The notes beneath the pieces were generated by a model. It was given only the letters and a program-made list of their open reading frames with translations, was not told where the DNA came from and searched no databases. Made by a program: the position numbers and the translations under genes. Source: an endosymbiont of Lamellibrachia barhami (lineage in GTDB: Bacteria; Pseudomonadota; Gammaproteobacteria; Chromatiales; Chromatiaceae). From it: a DNA stretch of 60,280 nucleotides. Shown here in pieces: positions 37,921 to 41,369 of this stretch. Where the stretch lies: positions 1,466,246 through 1,526,525 of the forward strand of contig NZ_JAAVSH020000001.1 in assembly GCF_011947365.2 (NCBI RefSeq). The letters are read 5' to 3'. The first letter of the stretch is position 1; every line of letters begins with the position of its first letter.

Positions 37921-40005
37921 ATGAATCAGATGTTTTCTCGCCTTTTTTCAAGGGAGTTGTTGCATAACTCAGAGTATCAGTCGGCTTGGGTACGTCTGGC
38001 GATCTGGAGTTTCAGTGTTGGTTATATCGGGCTTGGCGCCTGGACCGATTACTATGTGGTCGATGTCGGGCAGTACTATCTCTTTTTCGGTTTCTTCATT
38101 CTGCTCTTTCTGGGCCTGCTGATCAGTATCTACTACGTGCCAGAGATGCCGGCGCGTCGCTACGTCACAGTTGTTTCCGATATCGTTGCCGTCAGTCTGG
38201 CAATATTTCTCACCAACGAGGCAATCAGCCCCTTCTACCTGCTCTACATCTGGATATTCGTCTCCTACGGAACCCGCTATGGCAAGCGGCTGTTGAAGGT
38301 AGCCTCCATCCTTAGCGTCTTCGCCTACAATGTTGTGTTGATCGCCCTGGATGAGTGGCAGCAGCACACCTTCGAGGCCTTTTTCTTCCTGTTGCTGCTG
38401 GTGGTGCTGCCGATGTACCAATACTCCCTGCTGCGCAAGTTGCATGAAGCGCGGCAGGAGGCGGAACAGGCCAATAAGGCGCGGGGGGATTTTCTCGCCA
38501 CCATGACCCATGAGCTGCGTACTCCGTTGATTGGGGTGATTGGTATGTCGCGGTTGATGCAGTCCACCCGCCTGGATGCGGAACAGCAGGAGTATCTGCA
38601 CTCAATCAAGGCCTCGGCTCAACTGCTGCGGGCATTGATTGGGGATATCCTCGATTTTTCCAAGATCGATGCCAACAAGCTGGAGCTGGAAAGCAGTGCC
38701 TTTGAAATCCGGGAACTGCTGCGTGGGGTCACTTCAACCTTGGCAACAGAGGCGCAGGAGAAGCAGGTTGAGCTGATCTGCCAAGTGGATGCGCGGCTGC
38801 CCAGAGAGTTGTTGGGAGATGAACTGCGGCTCTCTCAGATTCTCTTTAATCTGCTGGGCAATGCGATCAAGTTTACCGATGAGGGAGAGGTGGTCCTGCG
38901 TGTCTTGCTGGCTCCGGCTGACGATAAGGTAACCGTGCCGCATGTTCGGCTTGAGGTGGAGGACACGGGGATCGGCATCCCGGCTGAGAAGCTGGAGAAT
39001 ATATTCGAGATGTTCTGGCAGGCGGATGTATCGACCAGCCGTCGCTTCGGTGGTACAGGCCTCGGAACCACGGTGGCTCGTGACTTGGCGCGCCTGATGG
39101 GGGGTGATATCGGGGTCAGAAGCAGGCTGGGTGAGGGAACCTGTTTTTGGGTAAAACTCCCCCTGCTGCCGAAGGACGGCAGTAAAAGTGGGGTTAAACC
39201 CCCTGTATTGTCCGGCCGCCGCTGTCTACTGTTTGAGGCCAACGATACGGGGAGGTCCGTATACAGCGAGGTGGTGACGGCGTTGGGTATGGAGGTAACA
39301 GCGGTCTCCAGCGTGGATTCACTGGCGCAGATGCCGAAACGGGCCTGGGAGCTGATTCTGCTCTGTGATTCAGTCAATGGTATAGATCCGGAGATCGTGC
39401 TGAACCAGCTCGATGAACATGTGACCGGACAACCTCCGGTGCTGTTTGCCGGCTATCGAGGGCGCAGGGTGGACCTGCCGGCACGGGTGATCCCGGCATT
39501 ACTGAAGCCCTTTCTTGTCGATCAGTTGGCGCAAGCCGCAGTGCGGGTGCTACGTGGGGAGAGTGCGAGTGGTGAGGATGAGGCGGCATTTTCCAAGCGT
39601 GGAGGCCGGCGTGCTGAAGACAGCGGTGTGAATATTTTGTTGGCGGAAGATAATTCGATTGCAGCAAAGGTGCTGACGACGCTGCTGGTGCAGAAGGGGC
39701 ACCGGGTGATTCATGCCATTGATGGAAGAGAGGCGCTGGAGGCGGCGACGAGTAACGAATTTCATCTGGCCTTTATCGATCTTCGTATGCCGCATCTGGA
39801 TGGCTTTGATTTCACTCGTCTCTATCGTGAACAGGAGCCTGAGGGACTGCACATGCCGATTCTGGCGCTCACTGCCAATGCCGCAGAGGATGTAATCGAA
39901 CAGTGTCACGAGGCCGGAATGGATGGCTTTATCAATAAGCCGGTAGAGCCGGAGCAGTTGGATTTGGTGATCTCCAGATATGTGCAGACGCAGGAATATG
40001 AGTAG
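37921..40005 (+). CDS. RpfC-like hybrid sensor histidine kinase
   Basis: 694 residues. Four to six N-terminal membrane helices (about 20-170), then a HisKA domain with phospho-acceptor H197 (MTHELRTPLIGVIGMSR). A HATPase domain follows: N box NLLGNAIKFTDEG, DTGIGIP, GTGLGTTVARDLA. A degenerate receiver-like segment (about 425-545) precedes a canonical receiver with D620 (FIDLRMPHLDGF) and a conserved Lys (FINKPVEP). The membrane arrangement and the GTGLGTT box resemble RpfC, the sensor of diffusible fatty-acid signals, but no Hpt domain or rpfF/rpfG neighbour is present, so the ligand is open. Only 5 bp separate it from the next gene. Confidence 0.9.
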   Translation: MNQMFSRLFSRELLHNSEYQSAWVRLAIWSFSVGYIGLGAWTDYYVVDVGQYYLFFGFFILLFLGLLISIYYVPEMPARRYVTVVSDIVAVSLAIFLTNEAISPFYLLYIWIFVSYGTRYGKRLLKVASILSVFAYNVVLIALDEWQQHTFEAFFFLLLLVVLPMYQYSLLRKLHEARQEAEQANKARGDFLATMTHELRTPLIGVIGMSRLMQSTRLDAEQQEYLHSIKASAQLLRALIGDILDFSKIDANKLELESSAFEIRELLRGVTSTLATEAQEKQVELICQVDARLPRELLGDELRLSQILFNLLGNAIKFTDEGEVVLRVLLAPADDKVTVPHVRLEVEDTGIGIPAEKLENIFEMFWQADVSTSRRFGGTGLGTTVARDLARLMGGDIGVRSRLGEGTCFWVKLPLLPKDGSKSGVKPPVLSGRRCLLFEANDTGRSVYSEVVTALGMEVTAVSSVDSLAQMPKRAWELILLCDSVNGIDPEIVLNQLDEHVTGQPPVLFAGYRGRRVDLPARVIPALLKPFLVDQLAQAAVRVLRGESASGEDEAAFSKRGGRRAEDSGVNILLAEDNSIAAKVLTTLLVQKGHRVIHAIDGREALEAATSNEFHLAFIDLRMPHLDGFDFTRLYREQEPEGLHMPILALTANAAEDVIEQCHEAGMDGFINKPVEPEQLDLVISRYVQTQEYE

Positions 40006-40010
40006 CGGTT

Positions 40011-41369
40011 ATGAGTGATCTGGTTGAACGGGCGGCACTCTATGCCACCCAGGCCCATGCGCGTATCGATCAACGGCGTAAATATTCCAATCAACCCTAC
40101 GATGTCCATCTGCGGGCGGTAGCTGAGATCGTGTCGGAGGTCACCGATGATGAACACATGATCGCAGCGGCCTGGCTGCATGACACGGTGGAGGATACCA
40201 CTGCCACGGTGCGCGATATTGAAACGACCTTTGGTCCGGATGTGGCGGCCCTGGTATCGGATCTGACGGACATCAGTCGTGCCAGTGACGGCAACAGGGC
40301 GGTGCGTAAGGCGATCGATCGCGATCATACGGCAAAGGCATCGGTTCGGGCGAAGACCATCAAGCTGGCGGATCTTACCGATAACTGCCGGGATATTTGC
40401 AAGCATGATCCCCGTTTTGGACGTGTCTATCTGGCGGAGATGACGGCGCTGCTCGAGGTTCTTGAGGAGGGCGATGAGCGGTTGAAAAAGCAGGCTCGTA
40501 AAGTCTGGGCACGCTGTCAGGAGAAGATTGGTCACGATCCCGCCGCAGTGTCAAACTCAATAGCGGCGCCTGTACGTACCGGTATCGGTGAGAATTTTGA
40601 ACAGAGACGTGCCCTGCGATTGTTTACCAAGTCGTTCTCTGCGCGGGATATTGCCGAGCCCCTGGCTTCATTCGATGCGGAAACATCGGCAAAATCTGTA
40701 CGCAAGATATTGCAGAAAAATGGCTGGTCGGTAGTCGGGTTGCGGGATGACGGATTGGTCAGCGGATATGTTCATGAAGAGGATCTGCTCTCCGGTTTTT
40801 GCCGGGATCACCACCGGTCATTTGCCAGGGGACAGGTGCTGCGTGAGACTGCATCACTTTCCGATGTGATACATGTTCTGACCCGGCATGAGAGCTGTTT
40901 CGTCTCCATGGTGGGTGGCGTTTCCGGCATTATTTTGCGGGAGCATATACAGAAACCGATTGTGCGCATGTGGCTGTTTGGCATGGTCACCATCATAGAG
41001 ATGAATCTGGTGGAACGGATTGAGAGAATCTTTCCAGATGATCTTTGGCGTGAGCAGTTGAGTGAGTCGCGCCTGGCCAAGGCGCTTGAGATGCAGCAGG
41101 AGCGCACCCGCAGAGGTCAGTCCGGTCGTCTTCTGGACTGCCTGCAATTTTCCGACAAGGCCAAGATCCTGATCAATGATGACAGTCAACTGCAATCGCT
41201 TGGATTCGACAGCCGCCGCACGGCCAAGAATGTAGTCAAGGAGTTGGAGTCACTGCGTAACAACCTGGCCCACTCCCAGGATATCGTCGCGCACAACTGG
41301 CCGCAGATCGCACGAATGACGCAGCGGATCGAGGAGTTGATTCTTTGGGATGGGGAAGAAACGGTGTAG
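40011..41369 (+). CDS. HD (SpoT/MESH1-like) + CBS-like + HEPN-like multidomain protein
   Basis: 452 residues in operon with the upstream kinase. Residues 1-175 are an HD domain of the (p)ppGpp-hydrolase kind: RRKYSNQPYDVHLRAVAEIV, H57-D58 in AAWLHDTVEDT, and KTIKLADLTDNCRDI. Residues ~185-310 resemble a CBS pair (ALRLFTKSFSARDIAEPLAS, GWSVVGLRDDGLVSGYVHEE). Residues ~310-452 are helical and include LLDCLQFSDKAKILI and ESLRNNLAHSQDI, where R416 to H421 fits the RX4-6H motif of HEPN RNases. No ppGpp synthetase domain is present. A regulated alarmone hydrolase joined to an RNase-like module is an inference. The CBS-HEPN part resembles stand-alone proteins in other bacteria; the added HD domain is unusual. 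Confidence 0.75.
   Translation: MSDLVERAALYATQAHARIDQRRKYSNQPYDVHLRAVAEIVSEVTDDEHMIAAAWLHDTVEDTTATVRDIETTFGPDVAALVSDLTDISRASDGNRAVRKAIDRDHTAKASVRAKTIKLADLTDNCRDICKHDPRFGRVYLAEMTALLEVLEEGDERLKKQARKVWARCQEKIGHDPAAVSNSIAAPVRTGIGENFEQRRALRLFTKSFSARDIAEPLASFDAETSAKSVRKILQKNGWSVVGLRDDGLVSGYVHEEDLLSGFCRDHHRSFARGQVLRETASLSDVIHVLTRHESCFVSMVGGVSGIILREHIQKPIVRMWLFGMVTIIEMNLVERIERIFPDDLWREQLSESRLAKALEMQQERTRRGQSGRLLDCLQFSDKAKILINDDSQLQSLGFDSRRTAKNVVKELESLRNNLAHSQDIVAHNWPQIARMTQRIEELILWDGEETV

Follow-up and report, generated by a model that had tools for sequence, protein, structure and literature searches.

A conserved HD-CBS-HEPN fusion protein from a Lamellibrachia barhami endosymbiont, a proposed nucleotide-gated RNase with an HD phosphohydrolase partner

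How should a bacterial gene be read that joins an HD domain of the kind found in alarmone hydrolases, a CBS pair and a candidate ribonuclease (RNase) domain in one chain? The question is raised by a gene in an endosymbiont of Lamellibrachia barhami, within a stretch of 60,280 nucleotides (contig NZ_JAAVSH020000001.1, positions 1,466,246 to 1,526,525 of the forward strand) that is here called the window. A preliminary description of the gene had proposed a SpoT/MESH1-type HD domain, a CBS-like region and a C-terminal HEPN domain with an R416-x4-H421 motif, situated behind an RpfC-like hybrid kinase. When the protein (P0001) was examined by profile search, AlphaFold2 modelling and structure comparison, the N-terminal HD, the CBS pair and the C-terminal domain, which is probably HEPN, were found in one chain. 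The parts of the protein and the gene upstream are as follows.

40011..41369, forward strand: HD-CBS-HEPN fusion protein P0001, 452 amino acids (aa); AlphaFold2 full-length model with a predicted local distance difference test (pLDDT) of 89.2 and a predicted template modelling score (pTM) of 0.84
40011..40535, forward strand: HD phosphohydrolase module, residues 1-175; small-alarmone-hydrolase fold, with phage/plasmid HD proteins as tree neighbours
40179..40196, forward strand: HDTVED motif, residues 57-62; H57, D58, E61 and D62 each present in 68 rows, which are all the HD-bearing rows
40371..40385, forward strand: DLTDN, the second kept HD-site motif, D121-N125; D121 in 68 rows and N125 in 67
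40623..40985, forward strand: CBS pair (Bateman-type module), residues ~205-325
40956..41348, forward strand: probable HEPN domain, residues ~316-446; sub-cut-off HEPN_Swt1 match and VIA comparison
41256..41273, forward strand: R416-N-N-L-A-H421, the HEPN Rx4H motif; R416, N417, L419 and H421 invariant in 72 of 72 rows
37921..40005, forward strand: hybrid histidine kinase upstream, 694 aa; HisKA, HATPase_c and receiver

The N-terminal module matched Pfam HD_4 (E value 2.6e-18), carries the active-site residues of the RelA/SpoT type and has a fold that structure comparison placed closest to small alarmone hydrolases, MESH1 among them, with fly Mesh1 as its best PDB sequence match (E 7.9e-19). 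The CBS-like region resolved into two CBS repeats that fold as a pair. For the C-terminal part, the Pfam HEPN_Swt1 model gave 21.8 bits for P0001 against a cut-off of 27.5, and reached E ≤ 0.01 in 55 of 72 family members (best 3.3e-6). A HEPN fold was found by VIA structure comparison, a kind of check named beforehand, in which the top 9 of 47 rows were HEPN proteins, the comparison drawing on Foldseek's own 254 candidates; Foldseek alone gave no match for the HEPN part at E ≤ 0.001. The proposed C-terminal HEPN domain is supported, as a probable one, both by this fold and by the Rx4-6H motif.

A scan of genome contigs found 152 relatives, of which 80 loci were kept for analysis. Of the 80 open frames, 79 carried the LRNxLxH motif, and the remaining one is frame-broken (L076). 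HDxxE was present in 73; the seven frames lacking it comprised three that are truncated or disrupted close to the end of a contig (L051, L054, L066) and four that encode CBS-HEPN proteins without HD (L094, L111, L116, L117). An alignment of 72 rows (A3) was made from P0001 and 71 of the kept loci, leaving out near copies (L045, L050, L097), one locus broken near the contig end (L051), four cut loci (L054, L066, L072, L084) and L076. R416 and H421, on whose conservation the HEPN claim had been staked beforehand, were invariant in this alignment, together with N417, L419, C377, Q379, D382 and K383. Among the 68 rows that bear the HD domain, H33, H57, D58, E61, D62, K118 and D121 were kept in all and N125 in 67. 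A further alignment (A4) held 35 rows, four of them starting within the CBS region. The [ST]xxD-type motif of CBS repeats contacts ribose; in this family the second repeat is mostly [TSC]-R-x-D, with D at position 312 in 54 of 72 rows, and P0001 has LREH there, its nearest relatives having LRxH.

These findings show a conserved bacterial family in which a gene next door sometimes supplies the phosphatase part. This arrangement was followed in Desulfuromonadia, the class of L094, where 10 of 194 genomes matched at E ≤ 1e-25: two with the HD fused, seven with CBS-HEPN lacking HD and one with a fragment spanning positions 57-205. Each of the seven HD-less CBS-HEPN genes was followed downstream by a P0002-type HD frame that adjoins or overlaps it, the overlaps being upper bounds because the frames run from stop to stop (loci with a separate HD: L094:6768-7349, L111:2964-3576 and L140-L146). 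Two of the seven, in the L094 and L111 genomes, were already known before this survey. No separate HD gene was seen within the 1.5-kilobase flanks of either of the two fused genes. The separate HD matched best to the HD region of the multifunctional CCA addition/repair protein (E 3.3e-11 and 3.3e-12, matches far under that model's whole-protein cut-off), and its best match in PDB was a poly A polymerase. The HD of the CCA addition/repair protein has 2',3'-cyclic phosphodiesterase activity. The fused-or-adjacent link of an HD protein with CBS-HEPN is new here, and several points weigh against giving it full force. One locus has an in-frame TAG (L144), another is cut at the contig start with its remainder on a second contig (L146 and L148), and for L145 the partner HD lies at a contig end and is matched in part only, with 44.5 bits. 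Moreover, L116 and L117 lack HD and had no separate HD partner in the flanking DNA examined, so that a partner is present for 7 of 9 of all HD-less genes found, and the strength of the count of seven out of seven is limited because the genomes share ancestry.

The kinship of the fused HD was examined by identity and by trees. All eight phage/plasmid relatives inspected are stand-alone HD proteins, and they were 41-56% identical to the window HD, compared to 34-41% for short chromosomal HD proteins of related genomes and 34-37% for SpoT/RelA-sized proteins. The trees contained P0001, 25 fused loci and the eight phage/plasmid proteins, plus these comparison sets, which were labelled by length and source and do not include MESH1 sequences; the HD sequences of L004 and L033 were absent from them. 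In the first tree, in which the bootstrap had not settled and a long-branch warning was given, the fused HDs grouped with the phage/plasmid HDs, including PaSpo-SSU5, and were split from both other sets with support of 97/95. The small HD protein of the endosymbiont's own genome (L003) was placed in the phage/plasmid region, at the tip of a very long branch. In the second tree, without L003 and the seven SpoT/RelA-sized rows, the short chromosomal rows were set apart with support of 100/100, and the separation of the fused HDs from the phage/plasmid rows was weakly supported (66/51). The exact place of PaSpo-SSU5 is unsure because its branch is long in both trees. The placement nearest to phage/plasmid HD proteins is new in this analysis and rests on sequence comparison. 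PaSpo of Salmonella phage SSU5 counters the toxin FaRel2 by taking off the tRNA modification that FaRel2 installs (PMC11559606, in the part covered here).

What, then, would the assembled protein do? We propose a nucleotide-gated HEPN RNase, probably active, with an HD phosphohydrolase partner. In the mechanism that we favour, although with a confidence somewhat short of even, R416 and H421 would form the active site of a cytosolic endoribonuclease, expected to lie between two subunits, and this RNase would be switched by nucleotide binding at the CBS pair. The HD would strip 2'/3'-linked phosphate or pyrophosphate off one of two targets, the signal nucleotide that activates the RNase or the 3' end of an RNA, and in this way reset or limit the RNase. 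Control of a HEPN enzyme by CBS is suggested by the precedent of DS-11, as far as it is described in the part of the paper covered (PMC13092281), and a role at RNA 3' ends or on 3'-pyrophosphorylated nucleotides is suggested by the relatives of both HD types, PaSpo-SSU5 and CCA addition/repair, which act there. A more specific proposal, which we consider distinctly unlikely, is that the HD acts on RNA and not on free alarmone. The HEPN would cut RNA, perhaps tRNA, once a nucleotide occupies the CBS pair, and the HD would take phosphate or pyrophosphate off the RNA 3' end, which would amount to cut-and-heal or reversible tRNA inactivation. The fused PaSpo-like HD and the separate CCA-repair-like HD would then be independent solutions to one 3'-end task. 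For the family as a whole, the exchange between fused and adjacent HD and the likeness of the two HD types to PaSpo and to CCA repair offer concrete testable substrates. If the reading is right, a single chromosomal protein would combine the sensing of a nucleotide with RNA cleavage and the removal of phosphate from 3' ends.

The distribution of the family is patchy. Near-complete copies were found in 11 of 92 genomes (the endosymbiont's own included), and a further genome (G018) had a split copy. A survey of the class gave matches at E ≤ 1e-30 in 13 of 274 genomes, again including its own; eight of these matches were near full length, one of the eight having two in-frame TGA codons. Judged by their record titles, the 80 kept loci were mostly from Gammaproteobacteria, tubeworm symbionts and Thiodiazotropha included, with some from Beta- and Deltaproteobacteria. 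Among mobile elements, none of 291 phage records and none of 364 plasmid records reached 80% of P0001; coverage was 31-46% for phage and 32-44% for plasmid among the 20 matches listed for each. The CBS-HEPN part had seven haloarchaeal plasmid matches; the CBS proteins encoded on these plasmids (L126:5953-6807 and others) are 21-24% identical to it, and the combination may extend into archaea.

The hybrid kinase ends 5 bases before the fusion gene in the window and overlaps it by 4 bases in Thiodiazotropha (L048-L050), and the two genes are likely to share an operon in this group only. Among the 74 loci with a visible upstream open reading frame (ORF), a kinase adjoined in six, all from the one group, and kinase-like fragments were seen in L076. 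The survey of homologues that the preliminary description had called for consequently rules out an RpfC-type partnership as a family trait. RpfC is a hybrid kinase bearing a C-terminal Hpt domain; for the upstream kinase, Pfam at E ≤ 1 gave HisKA, HATPase_c and Response_reg alone, with no Hpt. The hybrid kinase and its 5-base spacing were found as proposed. Neighbours at the ±1 positions were scanned for 111 of 122 proteins (90-800 aa), some of which may be shadow ORFs in GC-rich genomes. The commonest Pfam families (first 25 of 102) were two-component kinase domains, with 6-7 members, followed by MTHFR, cation:proton exchanger with TrkA_N, and OprD, with five each. A Kef-type cation:proton exchanger ORF lies directly upstream of the family gene at L067, L070, L074, L080 and L094, assigned by Pfam name for L067 and L094, and by blastp clustering and the neighbour family tally for the other three. 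PADLOC models matched by neighbours at E ≤ 1e-15 (first 25 of 51) were GajB/UvrD-type helicases and one RTasHel, with two members each; these matches may simply reflect ordinary UvrD-like helicases. There was no clear sign of a defence island among the ±1 neighbours scanned, a comparison made without a control set of distant genes.

The kinase and the MESH1-like fold also invite a reading as a stringent-response regulator, in which the HD would hydrolyse (p)ppGpp or a relative, the CBS pair would sense the same pool and the kinase would be an input in this group, so that RNA decay would be coupled to the alarmone level. Fly Mesh1 as top PDB match, the closeness of the kinase gene and the RelA/SpoT synthetase domains at four places in the endosymbiont's genome are consistent with it; the rarity of the kinase across the family and the grouping of the HD with the phage/plasmid set, and not with SpoT/RelA-sized or short chromosomal proteins, argue against it, and we regard it as unlikely. 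In the same genome, the relA-type gene at L136 (G000:C1:2415500-2420500) seems to be disrupted and to carry two tandem copies of its synthetase part, which is either real or an assembly fault. A further alarmone-synthetase-like ORF of 310 aa (L135:1199-2131, reverse strand; G000:C1 near 509779) overlaps the end of an ORF that by eye resembles a membrane sensor.

An anti-phage abortive-infection effector like DS-11 was also considered, in which infection would alter a nucleotide, the CBS pair would free the HEPN RNase, and the HD would limit self-damage or counter alarmone-type toxins. The patchy distribution, the protection against phage given by the CBS-HEPN protein DS-11 (PMC13092281) and a PADLOC hit, though a weak one, between residues 346-430 of P0001 and PDC-M34B (E 0.007) point in this direction, as does an IMG/VR contig (L125:5001-5813) whose CBS-HEPN gene shares 33% identity across residues 203-431 and is interrupted by one in-frame stop. 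This phage-like contig also bears an integrase and a Nu1-type packaging protein; Pfam gave no match for the two pieces of the broken gene, and its DNA had zero matches in E. coli, in a search sensitive to near relatives of that DNA only. We judge such a role unlikely. Neither the commonest Pfam families of the ±1 neighbours nor the helicase-type PADLOC models among those listed speak clearly for defence, and the CBS-HEPN part was unmatched in 50,697 phage records. Improbable to a greater degree is a HEPN without RNase activity that only dimerises or binds RNA, leaving the HD as the single working enzyme. Some Swt1-like HEPN domains are indeed inactive according to the part of a 2013 HEPN survey covered here (PMC3710099), but the same source lists the fusion with CBS and HD as "active", a judgement made by motif, and R416, N417 and H421 are invariant in all 72 aligned rows. 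The reading as a CBS-switched RNase with an HD that resets or limits it is retained.

The combination of modules, described at the outset as uncommon, is real and its family patchy, but the architecture was already known. The 2013 survey describes a Swt1-like HEPN fused to "CBS and HD (alr3009), active", with ligand-controlled RNA stability proposed (PMC3710099). P0001 agrees with that description by its modules, the likeness to alr3009 and to gi 118580987 of Pelobacter propionicus being drawn from the description of the same three modules and Swt1-type HEPN and not from their sequences; the HD is called a phosphohydrolase in the part of the survey covered, and ppGpp is mentioned nowhere in that paper. 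The additions of the present analysis are the HD type and the fused-or-adjacent pattern. The open literature searched, a scope beyond which lie most subscription papers and all preprints, held no experimental study of the three-module fusion, only the 2013 survey and the DS-11 paper on CBS and HEPN domains together, and only the survey on alr3009.

Compared to known systems, DS-11, reported in 2026 to defend E. coli against phage, is likewise a single chain of CBS and HEPN in which mutation of either module abolishes defence; it differs in being described, in the part of the paper covered, without HD, and the likeness is one of description and not of sequence (PMC13092281). AbiF (8vz6) and the MNT-HEPN toxins, which by their titles are bound to non-coding RNA (AbiF) or are HEPN toxins with MNT antitoxins or alone, differ in that the window HEPN comes after HD and CBS within one chain. 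MESH1 and other small alarmone hydrolases are stand-alone enzymes without an RNase module and, in the part of the defining paper covered, have the HD domain alone in the protein (PMC3153485); in P0001, CBS and HEPN follow, and it is the module alone that is of this kind. PaSpo-SSU5, 37% identical to the window HD over residues 5-202 and in the same region of the HD trees, is a stand-alone protein of 213 aa without CBS or HEPN.
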